From the IMG/VR virus record IMGVR_UViG_3300031600_000032, positions 1-23,929 of that record: 23,929 nt of DNA; one strand, 5' to 3'. Shown here in pieces: positions 1,265-23,929 of the stretch. The notes beneath the pieces are model-generated. The model was not told the origin of the DNA. It did no database searches and was given only the letters and a program-made list of their open reading frames with translations. How positions within the stretch are numbered: the first letter of the stretch is position 1; each line of letters opens with the position of its first letter. The DNA comes from a virus. The position numbers and the translations under genes were made by a program.

Positions 1265-2947
1265 TTATATGGTCTCTAACCCACTTACAAAAAGTCTAGC
1301 ATAGAATTCTGGTCTTATCATTTTCTTAGCGAATCTGGTAAGTAATCCTTTACTAGGTGTGAATGTTTCTGGATCGTACACTAAAGGTGTCATAATTAAT
1401 GGAATATATGGTGCAAATACCGCCCCAGCTTCTAAGAATTGATTACCTCTATATCCTAATAGGATTGTGTTCTCAGTCATAAATGGGTTTTTAAATACTT
1501 TGTACCTACCATTTAATTGACCTGTCTTTTGTACACCAAAAGCATATGAATTTTTACTCACATCACCATCTGAACTAGATGAGAAACCTGGGATTGATTC
1601 AATAATTGTTGCTACACTTGGAGAAACCACCATGAAGTTAGCTCCACCTCTAAAGGTTTTCTGGTGTATACCGTTACTTAATTTTTGTAATTTAGTACCG
1701 ATAGTTTGGAACCATCCACCTTGTGTGTTATAAAAACCACCTGTATTAACATCTTCTGATACGAAATCAGCTCCTGAGAAGAAAGTGTTATTTTTAGCTG
1801 ACCAATATTCATCACCACCTTTGGCTCCTTGAATAAGCATATCTAACATTTCTAAGTCAATTTCCATAGATACGTGGTCAGTCATCATATCACTGATTTC
1901 TGCCTCAGCATCAACGTTTTGATATTTGTCAATGTCAGTTGCGAATTCTTGAGTCCAAGATGCTTTTAACTTTCTTGTTTTCGCAGTAATTGATTCACTT
2001 CTCATTTGAAGCTTTAACTCAGGTATTTTAATACCATCTGCGTTATCGGGAACCAATGATCCATTTTGATCTTCAAAATCACCTCTTGCGTTATCTTTAG
2101 TTTGTAAAGCTTGCTCTACTATAACATCTACACTTGTAGGAGTACCTGCACCTGGGTCTGCACCTGCTGGAAATACACTTTTATCTACAATAAAAATAAC
2201 ATTGTCCCCATCTACACGAGTAAACTCTGGGAAAATAGATACTTCTGGGATAGTTACAGGTGTACCGGGATTTGTTGAATCTTCTTTTAATCTGAAACCT
2301 CTTACAGCTTCTAAATCAACAGCCGCATTTAAATCAGCTTTTGGTACAGTTACTCTAACTAAATCTTCAGCTGCTACGGCAGCATATAATCTAGAATCGA
2401 ATCTAATGTCCTGCTTTGTAGCTGTTGCTAAGGCAATACCTTCTGAAGTTGATTCTACAGTATTAATAGAGTAGCTAAATCTACCTGCCCCATAAAAACC
2501 ACCACTTGCTTCGTTTCCGAAAGGCTTGTTATCTCCAGTGTTACCATAAAGTGAATCACCTTTCTTGAAAGGTCCTTTATCAGTACCATATTGAAAATCT
2601 AGGAAGAATACTAATCCCGATGGTAAGTTTAATGGTTGAACAGATACAAATTCTTTAGATGAAATTTGACCAAAAATCTTTCTTACCATTGGTAATGCGA
2701 TTCCGGCCCATTGCTCACCTACTCCAGATGTGAATGTACCACCAGCTTGTCCACCTCCGGAAAGAGATGTTTCTACTACTAATTGTTTTGTTTGGTTTTC
2801 GAGAATCATACTCATGTTGTTTTTCTCAACATCATTACTTAAATTCTCTAGCAAACCCGTTTGCTCCCATTTGTTACTCAACCTTTGAGCTTTTTGTTGG
2901 ATAGATTTATAAGGGTTTGAACTTTCTAATAATTGTTTTAATTCCAT
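1265..2947 (-). CDS. gp23: Major capsid protein (T4 gp23-like)
   Basis: 560 residues, slightly longer than T4 gp23 (521). The protein forms the hexameric shell of the head. Family signature: after a 60-residue helical leader, a Gly/Ala-rich stretch leads to PMVRKIFGQISSKEFVSVQP, then LPSGLVFFLDFQYG, matching the conserved gp23 block around 'VQPM..PTGQVF'. The C-terminus (PLIMTPLVYDPETFTPSKG, then RPEFYARLFV) is also typical. T4 gp23 is cut by the prohead protease after residue 65. Here the likeliest cut is after Glu59 in QLVVE/TSLSGGG, just before the Gly-rich stretch (inference). It is the last gene before a strong terminator. The leader is A-rich, with no Shine-Dalgarno box. Confidence 0.96.
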   Translation of the reverse strand: MELKQLLESSNPYKSIQQKAQRLSNKWEQTGLLENLSNDVEKNNMSMILENQTKQLVVETSLSGGGQAGGTFTSGVGEQWAGIALPMVRKIFGQISSKEFVSVQPLNLPSGLVFFLDFQYGTDKGPFKKGDSLYGNTGDNKPFGNEASGGFYGAGRFSYSINTVESTSEGIALATATKQDIRFDSRLYAAVAAEDLVRVTVPKADLNAAVDLEAVRGFRLKEDSTNPGTPVTIPEVSIFPEFTRVDGDNVIFIVDKSVFPAGADPGAGTPTSVDVIVEQALQTKDNARGDFEDQNGSLVPDNADGIKIPELKLQMRSESITAKTRKLKASWTQEFATDIDKYQNVDAEAEISDMMTDHVSMEIDLEMLDMLIQGAKGGDEYWSAKNNTFFSGADFVSEDVNTGGFYNTQGGWFQTIGTKLQKLSNGIHQKTFRGGANFMVVSPSVATIIESIPGFSSSSDGDVSKNSYAFGVQKTGQLNGRYKVFKNPFMTENTILLGYRGNQFLEAGAVFAPYIPLIMTPLVYDPETFTPSKGLLTRFAKKMIRPEFYARLFVSGLETI

Positions 2948-2968: not shown

Positions 2969-3934
2969 TTATTTTTTAATACCTGCAATTCGTTGCCATC
3001 TAGCAGTCATACCATTGTCTTCATTTATGGGTTGAGATGCTTTTTTGTTTTCAACGATTTGTGTTGTTTTGGAGGCAAAAGGTTTGTGTTTAGTATTTAA
3101 AGGCTTTGAGACCAATGAATCTTTTAACATTTCATAAATCAATTTAGATTCTTTTATAGAAGTTGCATTATCAAATGTTTTTACTACGTATAATTTTTTA
3201 GATTCTGTCAAACTCTTTTCTTTAAGAATTCTATTAGAATATAAAAGTTTTGAATTTAATAAATTTAATTGCTTATTAGACTCATTTAACTTTTTTAAAG
3301 TTTTTTCAACTAAACTCTGATCTCTCTTTGCTTTATTAGAATTTTCTTTAAGGAACTTTAATTTTCTTTTTAGAGATTTATTCTCTTTAATTGCACTATC
3401 GTATCTTTTAAATTTATTCATCTCTAACATGCCATCATCATCGGAATCATCATCCATAATGTCATCTTCTAAATCAGTAGCGTCTAATTCACCTTCGTCT
3501 ATCATATCTTGGATTACTCCTTCTATGAATTCTTCAAGTTCATCTTCAGTCATACTTGAAATATCAACTTCTGAATCATCATCCATGTCTAAATCATCAC
3601 CCATGTCTAAATCATCACCCATGTCTAAATCATCATCACTATCGATATCTTCCATATCATCATCTGCTTCTTCACTTAGATTTTCATCTAATTCATCGGA
3701 AGAGTTGTCTAACTCAGATAATAATTCGTCTAAATTTATATCATCCATATCATCCATATCATCATTGTCATCATCATCAGATGAATTCATTTCTAATATT
3801 CTTTTAGATAACATAGATTTCATTTTGGGGCTGAAATTTTCTTCAAGTGATACCTTGGCATTTTCTAAAGCTAACTCTTTGATGCTTTTAACATCTAGGA
3901 TTGCCTCCTGTAATAATCTTTTATTCTTACTCAT
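2969..3934 (-). CDS. gp22: Prohead scaffold/core protein (T4 gp22-like)
   Basis: 321 residues, directly upstream of the capsid gene, as gp22 is in T4. A basic N-terminus (about 1-50) is followed by an extremely Asp/Glu-rich region (about 50-170) with LDMGDD repeats. After that come a long Lys/Glu/Leu coiled-coil region (about 175-250) and a C-terminal helical part with LLNSKLLYSNRILKE and KLYVVKTFDNATSIKESKLIY. I recognise that last block from scaffold proteins of T4-like phages. The protein would assemble the prohead core and then be degraded by the protease. LLQE/A at residues 7-11 fits the (L/I)xE/(A/G/S) cleavage rule. The acidic region produces a long Ser-rich shadow frame on the plus strand that is not a gene. 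Confidence 0.85.
   Translation of the reverse strand: MSKNKRLLQEAILDVKSIKELALENAKVSLEENFSPKMKSMLSKRILEMNSSDDDDNDDMDDMDDINLDELLSELDNSSDELDENLSEEADDDMEDIDSDDDLDMGDDLDMGDDLDMDDDSEVDISSMTEDELEEFIEGVIQDMIDEGELDATDLEDDIMDDDSDDDGMLEMNKFKRYDSAIKENKSLKRKLKFLKENSNKAKRDQSLVEKTLKKLNESNKQLNLLNSKLLYSNRILKEKSLTESKKLYVVKTFDNATSIKESKLIYEMLKDSLVSKPLNTKHKPFASKTTQIVENKKASQPINEDNGMTARWQRIAGIKK
3583..3636 (-). repeat. Three 18-bp tandem repeats in the scaffold gene
   Basis: The 18-bp plus-strand unit beginning CCATGTCTAAATC occurs at 3583-3600, 3601-3618 and 3619-3636. The third copy differs at its last base. It encodes LDMGDD, LDMGDD, LDMDDD within the acidic core region. An in-frame repeat of this kind can change copy number without breaking the gene. 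Confidence 0.9.
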
Positions 3935-4106: not shown

Positions 4107-4733
4107 TTATAAAGGACAAGTACCATGTAAACATATTAACTCTCTAACAATATTATTAAAATTGCTATATTTACTAGGTTCGGATTTTATACTCTCATTC
4201 AAACTACCTTCTGAACTATTGTCTATATGATATGTTGAATTAGAATTAGAAGGATCAGATACAAAATCCCAACATAATAATTCAAAATCATTTTGTACCT
4301 CTAATATACCTCCTACTTCTACAAGACTACCCATCCCCCTTGAAGATACACCTACAGTAATTCTATTTTCTAATAAAGCCCTAAGTATGTTTCCTGATGG
4401 GGTGGGTAGAATTTCTATTTCACCATGTAAATTATCCCCAACCCACCAAAATTTAGTGATATTATGGGATACATTTTTTAAATTTATTATTTGTGATTCG
4501 GGATGATCAAGCTCACCTAGGGCACACCTTTTATTTACTTTTTGGAGATATAAATCCATCTCTCTTTCCCATAATTCCTTTGAGTAATACCGACCATTCC
4601 CATTTTTTAATTCAGCTGTCGCTAATACTCCTTGAACTAATAAATTTCCTCTATCAGATTTAGTAGATTCATATATAGAGTTTTTAGAAGTAGGGGTAAA
4701 ATATATGGTTTCTATTAATAATTGCTTCTTCAT
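4107..4733 (-). CDS. gp21: Prohead core protease (T4 gp21-like)
   Basis: 208 residues (T4 gp21 is 212). This herpes-assemblin-like serine protease matures the prohead by cutting scaffold and capsid precursors. LGELDHPE supplies the catalytic His77, and GVSSRGMGSL the nucleophile Ser130 or Ser131. The acidic member may be Asp156 or Asp160 in CWDFVSDP. The start is the second in-frame ATG (4733-4731): the longer frame from 4769 would translate through the promoter-like motif at 4751-4762. SLNE/S near residue 180 looks like a self-cleavage site. It sits between a small unknown gene and the scaffold gene, in the T4 position. Confidence 0.93.
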   Translation of the reverse strand: MKKQLLIETIYFTPTSKNSIYESTKSDRGNLLVQGVLATAELKNGNGRYYSKELWEREMDLYLQKVNKRCALGELDHPESQIINLKNVSHNITKFWWVGDNLHGEIEILPTPSGNILRALLENRITVGVSSRGMGSLVEVGGILEVQNDFELLCWDFVSDPSNSNSTYHIDNSSEGSLNESIKSEPSKYSNFNNIVRELICLHGTCPL

Positions 4734-4750
4734 ATTTATGGGATTGTTTT

Positions 4751-4762
4751 TTATTATAAATA
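4751..4762 (-). promoter_or_regulatory. Candidate late promoter (motif A) for the protease gene
   Basis: TATTTATAATAA on the coding strand, 17 nt before the protease ATG. It falls inside the over-long reading frame from 4769, which helps decide the start at 4733. Promoter role inferred from recurrence. Confidence 0.5.
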
Positions 4763-4789
4763 CACCCATATATTAAAAAAATTAGTTTT

Positions 4790-15542: not shown

Positions 15543-17663
15543 TTACTTTAAGATATTATTTCTAGTATAGAATGTAATTGTATTACCAATTTGAGTAATA
15601 AGCTTTTCATCTCCTAATTCTTTGGCTAACTCTAAAGCTTGTTGTAGATGTAATGATAATTCTTGACCATCCTCAGCATCAGCTTCGAAACCCGATAATT
15701 CATCATCATCTAAATCATCTATACCACCACCATCTTTATCTTCTTCGTTTTCATTTAATGTAACGTTGGCGTCCCATCTAATATCACCATTACGTACTAA
15801 TTTTAAATTAATATCGGGATTACCTTCTAATGTTTCTTCACCTCCAACATTTTTTAAATAATCTATTAATTCCAAAAATGTTTCAGATTCATAATAATCG
15901 GAAGTTCCATATTCTGATTTTTTCCATACTCCCGATTGTATACCACCTTCTTCTGATACGCTGTCATTAAATAATCCAGTAATATAATCTTCAAAAACAT
16001 TTCCTTGAAGAGACCCTTCTTCATTTTCATTTAGGTTTGATTCCTCTAAATTCATTTTATCTTTGATTAATTTTAATGCTTCTTTACTTAACTCCCCACC
16101 TTTCATTTTGAGTTGTTTTAACATTCTAATTATTTCATCTAATCCTGCATCAGCGGAGTGGCCCCTATCTCTAGCGGGACCCCCCATTCCATCATCATAT
16201 TCATCTAAGCTTTCCATATCAAAAGACTCTTCTTCAAAATCATCCCCTAATTCTACTTCCCTTGATATTTTTTCATAATCTTCACCATCTACAAATTCCA
16301 TGAAGTCTTCTTCAATTTCTTCTTCATCCATGTCACTCATAGAACACTGAGATTCTACTAAATATCTTCTATAAAACTCTACTTCTTTTTTAGTTCCTAT
16401 TTTGGATAAAAAATTTGTAGGTCTTCTAACACCTTCTCTTAATCTTCTATGTTTGTTTTCTAATAGACCCATTTCTTCCATGTCTTCCATATCATCTACT
16501 GATGATAAAATATCTGTAGAAACACCTCCCTCTTCATAATTTGGGTGGTCTTCAATTTCTTCCATCGTAGAGTCTAAAGCCTCTCTTACTTTGGCATCTA
16601 ATGATAATGGTGCTTTAAAACTTAAGGCAAAATCCCTTGTTTTTGTACCAATGTCAGTACCAGCATCATCATCTAACTCTTCTATTTCCCCTTCTGAGAA
16701 TTCGGATAAAAATTGAGATTTAATTTCTGCTTCAAAAAATTTTCCTTTATAACTAGGGTCAAATTGGTATTCCCCAAATATACGTACTACCAGAAATTCT
16801 TTGTTTTCTCTAAGGGATTTTCTACGTCTACTTTCTCTTAAAGTTCTTAGTTTTGAACTACCTCTTTTATTTTTTCTACGTCTGTTTTCTCTTAAAGTTC
16901 TTAGTTTTGAACTACCTCTTTTATTTTTTCTACGTCTGTTTTCTCTTAAAGTTCTTAGTTTTGAACTACCTCTTTTATTTTTTCTACGTCTGTTTTCTTT
17001 TAAATCAGATATAACTTTTCCTCCAACTTTTGGCAGACCATCTAGGGATGTTAAGTTGTTATTACTACATTCTAAATCACCTACTATTTTTTTAGGTCCA
17101 CCTTCTAATGATGTTAATTCATTATCGGAACAATCAAAATCCCCACCTATTAATTTTGGACTACCTTTCAAAGATTTCATTCCATTACCACCACATGAAA
17201 AATACCCTCCCACTTCTTCTTGAGGGGCACCTTCTAATGATTCTAATTGGTTATTCCTACAGTCATAATCCTCCTCTACTGTTTGTGGTCCACCTTTTAA
17301 GGAAGTTAAATTATTATCAGTGCATGAAAAGTCATCTGTTCTATCTGGACAACCTTCTAATGATGTTAAATTATTTTCAGAACAATTAAATATCCCCGTT
17401 ACAGAATTAAATTTTACAGGAATAAAATCTAGATCCCGGGCTGCTATATCAACGTGACCCTCTACATCGATACTCATATCATTGTTAATGGTATAACCAC
17501 GTATTCTAAGCTTTTTACATATTGCATCGACCTCTTCCTTTGATTTTGGAAAAATACCTTGACCCTCGTTTGCTTCACCTAAGGATTGACGTGGTCCTCT
17601 ATATAAAGGAGATTGCCCCAATCTATTTTCTTTTAAATACTTTCTTAAATTGAATTCACTCAT
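15543..17663 (-). CDS. Mosaic LRR / Arg-Lys repeat / acidic protein, possible internal head protein
   Basis: 706 residues. N-terminal 1-90 has RKYLKENRLG and SLGE/A. Six leucine-rich repeats of about 20-21 residues span 92-215 (pattern F-x-C-S-x-N-x-LTSLEGGP). Next are three identical 18-residue units of ENRRRKNKRGSSKLRTLR (223-276), half basic. The rest (about 290-706) is acidic with alpha/beta and helical stretches, long Asp/Glu runs and a helical C-terminus (LSLHLQQALELAKELGDEKL). LxE/(A/G/S) sites (SLGE/A, TLRE/S, RLRE/G, NLEE/S) fit the T4 prohead protease rule, so it may be packaged and cut in the head; this is inference. Function is not recognised. Motif A lies in the upstream spacer. 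Confidence 0.85.
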   Translation of the reverse strand: MSEFNLRKYLKENRLGQSPLYRGPRQSLGEANEGQGIFPKSKEEVDAICKKLRIRGYTINNDMSIDVEGHVDIAARDLDFIPVKFNSVTGIFNCSENNLTSLEGCPDRTDDFSCTDNNLTSLKGGPQTVEEDYDCRNNQLESLEGAPQEEVGGYFSCGGNGMKSLKGSPKLIGGDFDCSDNELTSLEGGPKKIVGDLECSNNNLTSLDGLPKVGGKVISDLKENRRRKNKRGSSKLRTLRENRRRKNKRGSSKLRTLRENRRRKNKRGSSKLRTLRESRRRKSLRENKEFLVVRIFGEYQFDPSYKGKFFEAEIKSQFLSEFSEGEIEELDDDAGTDIGTKTRDFALSFKAPLSLDAKVREALDSTMEEIEDHPNYEEGGVSTDILSSVDDMEDMEEMGLLENKHRRLREGVRRPTNFLSKIGTKKEVEFYRRYLVESQCSMSDMDEEEIEEDFMEFVDGEDYEKISREVELGDDFEEESFDMESLDEYDDGMGGPARDRGHSADAGLDEIIRMLKQLKMKGGELSKEALKLIKDKMNLEESNLNENEEGSLQGNVFEDYITGLFNDSVSEEGGIQSGVWKKSEYGTSDYYESETFLELIDYLKNVGGEETLEGNPDINLKLVRNGDIRWDANVTLNENEEDKDGGGIDDLDDDELSGFEADAEDGQELSLHLQQALELAKELGDEKLITQIGNTITFYTRNNILK
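16833..16994 (-). repeat. Three perfect 54-bp tandem repeats
   Basis: Units at 16833-16886, 16887-16940 and 16941-16994 appear identical base for base, with partial copies on both sides. Each encodes one 18-residue Arg/Lys-rich unit. The length is a multiple of three, so copy changes keep the frame. Perfect identity implies recent expansion or ongoing homogenisation. Confidence 0.95.
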
Positions 17664-18885: not shown

Positions 18886-19377
18886 TTAAATTCCTAAACT
18901 AGATAATTGAGAAAGAGTATTATCGATATCAGTATGATGTATACCAATACCACCACGCCCCACCCAATCTTTGATAATATGTATATTATCATCGATTAAT
19001 ATAGAATTGGGACCCCACAATTCTTTTTTTTGATTCTTAAATTTAAAACATATTTCAGGCTTATTTTTAAATAGCGAACCAGTTTTTTCTTTAACCCATA
19101 TTTTCTTCCCCACTCTTGATATATTGTTTCTTGATGGGGAAGTTAATATTTGATAATGATAATTTTTTATCTTATCCATTAATTTATGGGCACCCTCCAT
19201 AATAGGTAGATTTTTCCAAAAATTCAGCCCGTGGATTATGTCTATTAGAACCCAAAACTTTACAACTCCATGTTTATTTATATAAGATTGGGGGTTTTCT
19301 CCCGATATGTCAATAAAATGTTGTTCGAAATCTGCTAAAACCCCATCTAAATCTAAGTAGAACTTGTAATCTTTCAT
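18886..19377 (-). CDS. HAD-superfamily phosphatase, 5'-nucleotidase-like
   Basis: 163 residues. Motif I FYLDLDGVLADF gives the nucleophile Asp9 and Asp11; motif II ILTSPS gives Thr79 or Ser80; motif III Lys is probably in KNQKKELWG; motif IV SILIDDN gives Asp129-Asp130. A small helical cap follows motif I (residues 20-60). The pattern resembles 5'(3')-deoxyribonucleotidases, which remove phosphate from nucleoside monophosphates. The 3'-phosphatase half of T4 polynucleotide kinase is also a HAD enzyme, so an end-healing role with the upstream kinase is an alternative. It starts 9 nt after the double-zincin gene. Confidence 0.85.
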   Translation of the reverse strand: MKDYKFYLDLDGVLADFEQHFIDISGENPQSYINKHGVVKFWVLIDIIHGLNFWKNLPIMEGAHKLMDKIKNYHYQILTSPSRNNISRVGKKIWVKEKTGSLFKNKPEICFKFKNQKKELWGPNSILIDDNIHIIKDWVGRGGIGIHHTDIDNTLSQLSSLGI

Positions 19378-19386
19378 AATTTTTTA

Positions 19387-20403
19387 TTAAAATTTTATAC
19401 TTAGACCCTTACCATATGACCTCCAAGTTTCTATAATATATTGGGAATCCTTCCCATTAATATTATTTTTCATTAAATATTCTTTCATTAATGTTAATAG
19501 GGGTCTTTTTTGTTTTTTTGCTCTAAAATACAACCCCTGTATATTAGCATCTATTTCTTTGGGTAATAAAAAATAAGATTTACTATCGTTTACAACTTCC
19601 ATGATATCTCTTAAATGTTTATCATTTCCCTTAAGTTTACTAGGGATAATATTCACAGAATTTTCGCTATGTGTAGTATGTTCTATTTCGTGTCTTACTA
19701 TGTCTTTTAGTTCAAATGAAAGATTTTCCCAATTTTTTGGGAACATATCTATAGATGCATAACATATAATTTCTATTAAATTTTCATCAACAAAAAACCC
19801 ACCATCGGTTTCCATCTCATTATACTCATCAGAGAGATATAAAGTGGCTTCAACATCAATGTCTATGTCATTATTTATAAAATTGTTTGAAAATTCAATT
19901 TCTTGATTGGGGGTATTATTTAAATTATCTTTCCAATAATTAAATATAGAAGAGGATATTTCATTACTTATTTTATCATATCTCCCTTCATTCACATTAA
20001 ATCTTTTTTCAATGCTATTACCATTTTGTTTTATATTGTCCTTATAACTTCTTAATAGTAACCCCCCATCTCGATAAGCCTCGCTTTCTAATTCTTTCAA
20101 AACACGGTCTTCTTCTATATTATCTGTTTTTATACCCCCCAACTTTCCTTGTAATTCTTGCCTCCAATGGATTAGTTCATGACAATACGTGCTTATTATA
20201 TCTCGGAGGTGCCTTCCATCTGTATATAAAGTTATTATCCTAACACCTGGTTTATAATGACCAGTGTACCCATTAAACCAGTCACCACTATTTTCTTTAT
20301 TATTATCCATAATTTCTAAAATAGGGGGGTCAGATTTTATACCATTTTTTTCAATAAAAAATTGGTTTATGTCTTCTATAATTTCTGTTAAATTATCAGT
20401 CAT
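19387..20403 (-). CDS. Double zincin-like protein (two HExxH motifs)
   Basis: 338 residues with two separate metallopeptidase-like halves. First: GYTGHYKPGVRIITLYTDGR, then CHELIHWRQE (His75-Glu76-Leu-Ile-His79), with a possible third ligand Glu in LESEAYRDG (106-113). Second: VEATLYLSDEY and GGFFVDENLIEIICY, then VRHEIEHTTHSE (His238-Glu239-Ile-Glu-His242), with PKEIDANIQG (281-290) as possible third ligand. Each half has the strand-then-helix layout of zincins. Substrate is unknown; host-protein or virion-protein processing are possibilities. No signal peptide. It begins 3 nt after the nucleotidylyltransferase stop. Confidence 0.8.
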   Translation of the reverse strand: MTDNLTEIIEDINQFFIEKNGIKSDPPILEIMDNNKENSGDWFNGYTGHYKPGVRIITLYTDGRHLRDIISTYCHELIHWRQELQGKLGGIKTDNIEEDRVLKELESEAYRDGGLLLRSYKDNIKQNGNSIEKRFNVNEGRYDKISNEISSSIFNYWKDNLNNTPNQEIEFSNNFINNDIDIDVEATLYLSDEYNEMETDGGFFVDENLIEIICYASIDMFPKNWENLSFELKDIVRHEIEHTTHSENSVNIIPSKLKGNDKHLRDIMEVVNDSKSYFLLPKEIDANIQGLYFRAKKQKRPLLTLMKEYLMKNNINGKDSQYIIETWRSYGKGLSIKF

Positions 20404-20406
20404 ATA

Positions 20407-20925
20407 TTATTTTATTATGCTAATTAACCGTTTTAAATCTCCATTACTTATTGTGGGAAGGTATTTTTTTAGCTCTATATAATTCTTGTCCATTATACAT
20501 ATTCTAGTATTGGTACCACTTATATTCTGATTTGTAGTTTTTATAATGTGAGTTTTTAGATTAGGATACTTGTTATATACGGATTTAACTCTAGATGTGG
20601 AATTATTTTTATCTTCTTCTACTCCTTCTCTTTCTCCTAAAACAAATCCAATTTCATTCAACTCTTTATTATTTTTTACAAATCTTACCATAGAACCTAT
20701 TGGGGCGGTGGAGGCCACTATTTTAATTTTATTACTTAAATAGGGTTTATAAATTTCCCACACACCCATTGATTGTTCTTGTGTGATACCCCCTCTCTCT
20801 TTAGCACCAACATAAATAATAAATTTATCTATATCTGGTACTTCTTCTAATGTTTGTTTTACAACATTAAAATGACCAATGTGGGGTATTTTAAAACCCC
20901 CTCCATATAAATATATTTTTTTCAA
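20407..20925 (-). CDS. Nucleotidylyltransferase (HxGH/ISxTxxR family)
   Basis: 172 residues. GGGFKIPHIGHF (8-19) is the nucleotide-binding GxFxPxHxGH motif, and ISGTNTR (135-141) the second signature; both bind ATP or CTP phosphates. The family includes NMN adenylyltransferase, phosphopantetheine adenylyltransferase and cytidylyltransferases. The substrate is not readable, but NMN is plausible given the size and a NadR-kinase-like gene at 12758. The start is TTG (20925-20923) overlapping the TGA of the kinase gene by 4 nt (TTGA); the next ATG is past the active-site motif, so the TTG is needed. Translation is likely coupled to the kinase. Confidence 0.88.
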   Translation of the reverse strand: MKKIYLYGGGFKIPHIGHFNVVKQTLEEVPDIDKFIIYVGAKERGGITQEQSMGVWEIYKPYLSNKIKIVASTAPIGSMVRFVKNNKELNEIGFVLGEREGVEEDKNNSTSRVKSVYNKYPNLKTHIIKTTNQNISGTNTRICIMDKNYIELKKYLPTISNGDLKRLISIIK

Positions 20926-21674
20926 CTTTTTTTAAATTTTTCTAATTTATTTGCTAAGTCTGTAAGTGTATCAAATTCTTGTTTTTTATGAGATAATTTT
21001 ATTATGTTATTAAGATCTTTTAATTTTTGAAAATTTCTTTTAATTTCTTCTTTGGTGGTTTTTGGTTTAGATTTAATATTTACATCTTTATATTTTAATA
21101 AATCATTTATAGTAAATAACTTATCGGGTATGCCACTCATATTTATTAAACTAAAATTTTGTTTGAATAATTTTTTATACTGAGGTATTAAGCCTACATA
21201 ATCCGCCCAAGTTCTATTGATTATAGATGATAAAAGTCTTCTGTCTCTATTTTGATTTCTTTTTAATGTTATTAATGGGTGACTATATACCCCTATCATG
21301 AATATATCGTACCCTTGCTCTTCTAATTTTTTATATAATTTTAAAGTAATATTAAAACTTCCGGATGTGGTATCTATTATTATATTTTGAAAATTTGATA
21401 TTAATAAATCCCTTTCTTCCTTATTAGCTTTGTGGGCTTTACCCATTAATTTCCCACCTAGTGATCTCTCTTGAGGCGTCCATTTAGTATGGTCGGGATT
21501 AAGACCCTCTTCACTTATAAACACTTCATAATATTTATCCACATTAAGGATTTTATAACCTTCTAAAACTGTGGGTAATTTTTTGATTAGTGTGGATTTT
21601 CCACTAGCAGCGGGACCTCCCAATATTATGGCTTTGGGGCGCCCACTTTTTAATATGTTTACCATTTTTTTCAT
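20922..21674 (-). CDS. P-loop kinase (AAA_33 / zeta-toxin or polynucleotide-kinase-like)
   Basis: 250 residues. Walker A GGPAASGKST at 19-28, a substrate-side Asp in NVDKYY (46), strand-end IIIDTTSGS at 98-106, and an Arg-rich lid TLKRNQNRDRRL (136-147). These features match small P-loop kinases of the zeta-toxin, polynucleotide-kinase and adenylylsulfate-kinase groups. A Lys-rich helical tail (about 195-250) could contact nucleic acid or protein. The start ATG at 21674 is used; a second ATG three codons in is possible. It is the first gene of the block to 18886 and overlaps the nucleotidylyltransferase by 4 nt. Motif B lies upstream. Confidence 0.82.
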   Translation of the reverse strand: MKKMVNILKSGRPKAIILGGPAASGKSTLIKKLPTVLEGYKILNVDKYYEVFISEEGLNPDHTKWTPQERSLGGKLMGKAHKANKEERDLLISNFQNIIIDTTSGSFNITLKLYKKLEEQGYDIFMIGVYSHPLITLKRNQNRDRRLLSSIINRTWADYVGLIPQYKKLFKQNFSLINMSGIPDKLFTINDLLKYKDVNIKSKPKTTKEEIKRNFQKLKDLNNIIKLSHKKQEFDTLTDLANKLEKFKKS

Positions 21675-23476: not shown

Positions 23477-23929
23477 CTATACCATCACGTCTTTTATAAA
23501 AAATTTCCCTAGAATATTTGCATTATAATACAATTCGGGGTTTTCCAATACTTTATTCTCAAACTGATTTTGAGTTTCTCTATAAGTTAATTGTTTACTG
23601 TTAAACGCAAAACTAATAATTTCTTTTTTTATTTTATCTTCAGGAAGTTTATGTAACTCATCTAATTGTTTATTTGAATTAGTACCTCTATAGTTTTTCC
23701 AACTTGATTCTTTTACCACTAACTTTTTAGTGGGTAATTTTCCCCTAGTTTTATTTTTTTTTCTTTCTTCCTTAATATTTTCTAACTCTTTTTTCCCTAA
23801 TTTTTTATTTTGTTTAGAATATAGGTTTTTTTTACCTATATATTTTTTATTGTTTTCTAAATTGGTTAAAACATAAACAAAACCAAAACAACCTTCTGGA
23901 AAGTCATTTATATCTTTTATAATTTTTTC
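23477..23929 (-). CDS. GIY-YIG endonuclease, N-terminus cut by window edge
   Basis: 150 visible residues, open to the right edge. A short frame starting at a GTG (23719) would miss the catalytic part; read through, the frame continues upstream with GFVYVLTNLENNKKYIGKKN, the GIY-YIG signature (VYVLT ... KYIGKK), then a Lys-rich stretch and SSWKNYRGTNSNKQL. The last region (LTYRETQNQFENKVLENPEL, YNANILGKFF) fits the C-terminal part of phage single-domain GIY-YIG proteins. It may be a DenA-like or homing-type nuclease; the cut prevents a choice. Confidence 0.82.
   Translation of the reverse strand, partial: EKIIKDINDFPEGCFGFVYVLTNLENNKKYIGKKNLYSKQNKKLGKKELENIKEERKKNKTRGKLPTKKLVVKESSWKNYRGTNSNKQLDELHKLPEDKIKKEIISFAFNSKQLTYRETQNQFENKVLENPELYYNANILGKFFIKDVMV

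Follow-up and report, generated by a model that had tools for sequence, protein, structure and literature searches.

A two-zincin protein of a T4-type phage and its possible place in a family of head-cargo polyproteins

The protein P0001, encoded at 19387..20403 of the window (the whole 23,929-nucleotide stretch of virus record IMGVR_UViG_3300031600_000032 that was analysed), consists of two independent zincin-like modules and belongs to a 66-sequence family, A4. Sequence comparison points to conserved motifs in both modules, to enrichment of a short site at the joints between modules, to targeting-like N-termini in relatives and to the presence of a gp21-type protease. From these we infer cleavage, packaging, ejection, protease activity and targets. 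Our tentative reading, which falls just short of an even chance, is that P0001 is a two-module member of a head-cargo family of T4-type phages of Bacteroidota, the modules of which would be diced by the gp21-type protease and injected.

The P0001 reading frame runs on the minus strand from an ATG at 20403 to a stop codon that ends at 19387 and encodes 338 aa. A first-pass annotation of this DNA had described two zincin motifs 163 residues apart in one protein, and translation of the ORF confirms this spacing, first His to first His, for HELIH (residues 75-79; 20167..20181) and HEIEH (residues 238-242; 19678..19692). It had also placed the gene within a nucleotide-enzyme operon, which agrees with the neighbouring genes. 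There is an NMN adenylyltransferase-like gene immediately upstream (20407..20925; TIGR00482, 2.6e-5, below its cut-off) with the motifs GGGFKIPHIGH and ISGTNTR, overlapped by a P-loop kinase-like gene of the zeta-toxin/CPT type (20922..21674; PF06414, 6e-10), and a 5'-deoxyribonucleotidase-like (NT5C) gene lies immediately downstream (18886..19377; phrog_2643, 4e-28). This 23.9-kb virus record contains a T4-type head cluster of portal, terminase, prohead protease and major capsid protein. The T4 gp21-like prohead (head maturation) protease is encoded at 4107..4769 (phrog_207, 1.3e-53) and the major capsid protein, with the N-terminus MELKQLLE|S, at 1265..2947 (phrog_138, 8e-60); maturation of the latter is likely to occur at the putative site LVVE|T. 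The genes given here with coordinates are all on the minus strand. A Pfam search of P0001 gave no match, and neither did a PADLOC search for membership of a defence or antidefence family.

Two other features of the window are recorded here. An 18-bp tandem repeat at 3570-3635, within a scaffold-like ORF (2969-3934), encodes an acidic DDLDMG repeat. The PHROG 447 label 'NAD synthetase', which falls on the protein at 23477-23719 (minus strand) and on gp100 of Flavobacterium phage immuto, seems misleading; it was set aside for the window protein, in which Pfam finds a SegE-type GIY-YIG domain.

An AlphaFold2 model of P0001, made with an input of 66 sequences, has a mean pLDDT of 86.8 and shows two distinct domains with a disordered linker between them (residues 128-140; 19984..20022), where model confidence is below 50 at residues 135-137. 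From the model and the alignments, zincin 1 comprises residues 1-127 (20023..20403) and zincin 2 residues 141-338 (19390..19983). The earlier suggestion that each motif is accompanied by a strand and a downstream acid is borne out: both motifs are predicted to lie in helices that follow a beta-sheet, and a later helix in each half carries an invariant Glu (E106/E108 and E283). Both motifs and these downstream Glu residues are invariant in the 66 aligned relatives, and both motifs are kept in immuto, a cultured phage (37% identity), so that the pairing goes beyond chance. Of the refuting findings named in the first-pass annotation, neither a motif lying outside a helix nor a lack of conservation was encountered. 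Neither half matched a solved structure by sequence, and fold searches of the whole model and of zincin 2 against the PDB gave no significant match; the nucleotidyltransferases at the top of the results were disregarded, their TM-scores being near 0.2.

Zincin 1 is predicted to have a helix (residues 2-20), three strands (28-32, 48-51 and 56-60), the HExxH helix (66-84) and a Glu helix (100-127), an arrangement typical of zincins, in which the HExxH helix comes after a beta-sheet and the next helix bears a Glu. H75, E76 and H79 are invariant. Conservation marks E106-S-E108 (20080..20088) as the candidate third zinc ligand, both Glu residues being invariant in the 66 aligned relatives and in 23 diverse zincin 1 members. 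None of the members searched matched a curated family above its cut-off. The class of zincin 1 is nevertheless fairly safe, because members have sub-threshold Pfam matches that are mostly to metallopeptidases (M91, DUF6782, M76, PipA, MPTase-PolyVal, SprT and M78). Among predicted viral structures there are IrrE-like and uncharacterized phage proteins that match, the IrrE-like ones being matches to zincin 1. There is also a similar, functionally uncharacterized predicted phage protein for zincin 2, which does not decide the peptidase question.

The putative class of zincin 2 rests on motif, conservation and predicted topology. The model has a helix, four strands, an HExEH helix (225-245) and a Glu helix (281-298), and the module modelled alone reaches a pLDDT of 90.6 and a pTM of 0.88. 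R237, H238, E239, E241 and H242 are invariant, as is E283 (in LPKE; 19555..19557), the candidate third zinc ligand from its conservation, in both the 66-sequence and a 73-sequence alignment. On its own, zincin 2 has no Pfam metallopeptidase match, its fold search against solved structures in the PDB gave no match with E<=0.001, and its RHExEH has an unusual invariant Arg and second Glu. All this would suit some other fold, metal-binding or structural, in which HExEH occurs by coincidence, a reading compatible with the others discussed here. We consider such a fold unlikely, however, as the predicted core has its sheet, HExxH helix and Glu helix arranged as expected of a zincin and E283 does not vary.

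The two halves are independent modules rather than a regulator and its enzyme, because homology between them is undetectable, each is also found by itself, either can come first and, in relatives, anything from no residues to 425 separates them. Comparison of the zincin 1 and zincin 2 profiles detected no similarity (2.5%); internal duplication of one zincin, which was considered as an origin of the pair, is unsupported since the two profiles do not recognize each other. Among 139 distinct ORFs, some of them cut by contig ends, 76 have the architecture adenylyltransferase-zincin1-zincin2 and 25 have adenylyltransferase-zincin1; zincin 1 is alone in 15 and zincin 2 in three, so that relatives having each half alone do exist, and the order is reversed in six and zincin 2 duplicated in one. 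No zincin 2 was detected in the records of 130-175 kb phages carrying zincin 1, which may be incomplete. HExxH is intact in all 100 domains that were not selected by motif (50/50 zincin 1 and 23/23 zincin 2, that is 73/73, and 27/27 in loci found via other patterns). The first-pass annotation had raised the idea of an inactive half serving to regulate the other. A half that regulates or positions its partner would suit the tandem arrangement in one chain seen in the window, but with both motifs intact in every relative examined, each half found solo and in either order, and large modules inserted between them, this idea is highly improbable and we have dropped it. Each zincin-like module is probably catalytic by itself.

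As a sole query, P0001 retrieved nothing from viral contigs and a two-sequence alignment was needed, with which 18 loci were found in IMG/VR; when the halves were used separately, IMG/VR yielded 296 loci for zincin 2 and at least 581 for zincin 1. Only immuto among 50,697 phage records has the zincin pair, as the last third of gp088 (907 aa, annotated as an NMN adenylyltransferase). The bacterial genome collection yielded few matches, and these come from metagenome-assembled contigs, of which two are named Winogradskyella and Flavobacteriales. These names, together with immuto, point to Bacteroidota hosts. The phages that carry relatives, many of them aquatic viruses, have T4-type heads.

The relatives are polyproteins of up to about 1,400 aa, in which an NMN adenylyltransferase-like domain and zincins are combined with zinc ribbons, phosphatases and other modules. 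In most of them the adenylyltransferase-like domain is fused N-terminal to the zincins and there are several unrelated enzymatic domains per chain; P0001 has the two zincins only and its neighbours are separate genes. One locus (L021) has adenylyltransferase, zincin and nucleotidase activities in one chain, as judged by an NT5C match, and by sequence similarity the zincin polyprotein of another (L097) ends in an NT5C-like sequence. The tandem fusion had been described as unexpected. The fusion itself is real, but it is not an oddity of a single phage and exemplifies a modular polyprotein system that is widespread.

Several further modules were seen in these chains. The 1,312-aa chain at L097:3214-7149 has a third kind of HExxH module (QLAHEGVHLTR), two zincin 2 copies and a YunG-like module. 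The polyproteins of L021, L036 and L163 have a module starting GKQVGxLYHxT or similar, which is possibly ADP-ribosyltransferase-like and has no Pfam match. Many chains (L008, L013, L015, L018, L027, L036, L097 and L099) share a small zinc ribbon, CDNCGWSWxIKDGGDDLYxCHKCGHDN, that often has LxE sites on its flanks. Finally, in L007, L010, L012 and L018 there is a very basic module (DPKKGTGKKPKGSGRRLYTDE...) between the adenylyltransferase and zincin 1.

The joints between modules in relatives share a short motif (LNE|G, VMAE|G, LKE|G, INE|N and others), and the T4 gp21 prohead protease is known to cut after L/I-x-E (PMC9026906). Each of the 75 distinct junctions upstream of zincin 2 carries [LIVM]xE|G: P3 is always L, M, I or V and P1 always E, while P2 and P4-P6 vary. 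Enrichment was measured over 45 sequence clusters against equal windows of other ORFs from the same loci (200 draws). The site [LIVM]xE[GSAN] is present at the zincin1>zincin2 junction in 23/23 clusters compared with a background of 9.0 (maximum 14), and at the adenylyltransferase>zincin1 junction in 29 of 36 compared with 19.4 (maximum 27), relatedness being partly uncorrected in both comparisons. Motifs of the [LIVM]xE type occur in linkers at twice the shuffle frequency and are depleted in domain cores. A gp21-type protease is present in the window (4107-4769) and in 10 of 11 large records. P0001 itself keeps one such site, the candidate prohead-protease site VNE|G (residues 137-140; 19984..19995), which was read from the sequence and falls in the least confident part of the linker; its P3 is V and not the L/I of T4. 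The boundary between the adenylyltransferase gene and P0001 coincides in position with an LxE site of relatives, as would be expected if the parts work separately.

It has been proposed that the MPTase domains of polyvalent proteins process the chains that carry them (PMC5512222), and the zincins described here might do likewise. We regard autoproteolysis of this kind as very unlikely, because the junctions carry the T4 gp21 motif (PMC9026906), which recurs in the N-terminal region of zincin-free head proteins (capsid, scaffold and protease). Additionally, the zincins of the window are already separate from the other enzymes. Cutting by the gp21-type protease is the reading we retain.

In T4, a capsid-targeting sequence makes up the first ten residues of IPIII, and the propeptides of the internal proteins act likewise (PMC9026906). 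Where the adenylyltransferase is the first domain of a chain, it is preceded by an N-terminal extension such as MNSLVKSLIQPLLE|A. In such chains, [LIVM]xE is found at positions 9-21 in 49/53 of them compared with 32% of other ORFs; many of these sites have a P1' other than G, S or A. The scaffold, protease and capsid proteins of these phages have the same short motif near the N-terminus too. Two standalone zincin 2 genes (L016 and L028) start MKYIKxFExFxxNE|GRYD, which looks like a targeting peptide together with its cut. A targeting-like N-terminus is absent from P0001, from immuto gp088 and from the product of the window's adenylyltransferase gene. The packaging of P0001 is therefore less certain than that of its family, and the packaged and diced reading is weaker for it.

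The missing targeting-like N-terminus and the arrangement as separate genes in a nucleotide-enzyme operon would both fit a two-domain protease that is made in the cytoplasm during infection and never packaged. VNE|G would then be the conserved start of the zincin 2 fold, and EGRYD, which is nearly invariant, could be structural. We think a cytoplasmic protease rather unlikely: P3 is hydrophobic in 75/75 junctions whereas neighbouring positions vary, and the sites and N-termini of the family match those of prohead substrates.

Similar N-termini were seen elsewhere. A 706-aa ORF of the window (15543-17663, minus strand) starts MSEFNLRKYLKE|N and has a 54-bp tandem repeat of 3.5 copies (16818-17004) whose units encode basic peptides (KLRTLRE|NRRRKNKRGSS) with LxE|N at their bounds; from its sequence it looks like another head-cargo polyprotein. 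In immuto (NC_055915.1, 93455-128506; L002 and L186), targeting-like N-termini occur on many proteins of doubtful or no assigned function, including gp77, gp79, gp80, gp92 and gp93, which suggests that this phage carries a large internal cargo.

Taken together, the data suggest the following model. In most relatives, the zincin modules would be strung behind the NMN adenylyltransferase-like domain in a polyprotein that an N-terminal targeting peptide brings into the prohead. There, the gp21-type protease would cut between modules after [LIVM]xE, and the freed enzymes would be ejected with the DNA. The zincins may then cut host (perhaps defence) proteins and the adenylyltransferase may rebuild NAD+. 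The phage of the window has a gene each for the adenylyltransferase, the zincin pair and the nucleotidase; a single cut at VNE|G (139/140) would part the zincins. The two zincins are most likely separate enzymes delivered with the genome against host proteins, beside a possible NAD+-rebuilding enzyme. A wider idea is that these phages make RNA-virus-like polyproteins of shuffled enzyme modules (adenylyltransferase, several metalloproteases, phosphatases, zinc ribbons and others, with the two zincins among the most widespread), which the head-maturation protease would dice in the prohead, a single gene thereby supplying the full complement of ejected anti-host enzymes. This idea is possible but somewhat less than evenly probable.

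If the model is true, the head-maturation protease has the additional role of cutting cargo polyproteins, and LxE motifs offer an easy way of recognizing from sequence the enzymes that phages bring into cells. For hundreds of uncultured phages, this would help to predict from sequence which enzymes are injected. It would also provide two new metalloprotease families for testing against host or defence targets. The packaging idea is testable in immuto, the one cultured phage.

Literature phrase searches, in which subscription papers were poorly covered, found no cargo polyprotein cut by a prohead protease, which is weak evidence of novelty. No virion proteomics bearing on the packaging of these proteins was found in the literature. 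In phage NAD+ reconstitution (NadR/NadM/NadV; PMC9503650) there is likewise an adenylyltransferase-like domain with HxGH and SGTxxR-type motifs, here beside or fused to zincins, but no NadV-type gene was recognized in the window and adenylyltransferase is here a predicted activity. Known zincin-like metallopeptidases (M91, DUF6782, M76 and IrrE/M78-like) share HExxH and a downstream Glu on a second helix, whereas no zincin 1 member was seen to reach a curated cut-off and zincin 2 matches none of these families. The C-terminal third of immuto gp088 is the zincin pair of P0001 (37% identical, with VMAE|GRYD between the modules), but there it is fused to nucleotidyltransferase-like and adenylyltransferase domains in 907 aa and the annotation misses both zincins.

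The closest comparisons are with T4 internal proteins and polyvalent proteins. Like T4 IPI-III and Alt, which are cut by gp21 (PMC9026906), the relatives have a short N-terminal peptide ending LxE and a gp21-type protease in their genomes, and there are small proteins with MKYIKxFExFxxNE|G (L016 and L028). In contrast, the T4 cargo described in PMC9026906 is not an enzyme chain, and P0001 has no N-terminal peptide and has V at P3. Polyvalent proteins (Iyer et al., 2017; PMC5512222) are, in the passages drawn on here, large multi-domain phage chains of unrelated enzymes, encoded by phages and conjugative elements and predicted to enter the host with the DNA, in which a zincin-like metallopeptidase is the commonest domain, sometimes several per chain. 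Those passages do not describe an LxE-type junction motif or adenylyltransferase-zincin chains. The junctions reported here bear a prohead-protease-type motif and would not rely on an embedded zincin, and the MPTase model PF18818 matches, weakly, one of 23 zincin 1 members (E 0.017), which is not that of the window. Both multi-enzyme, injected, zincin-bearing phage proteins (polyvalent proteins) and packaged proteins cut by gp21 (T4) are already known.
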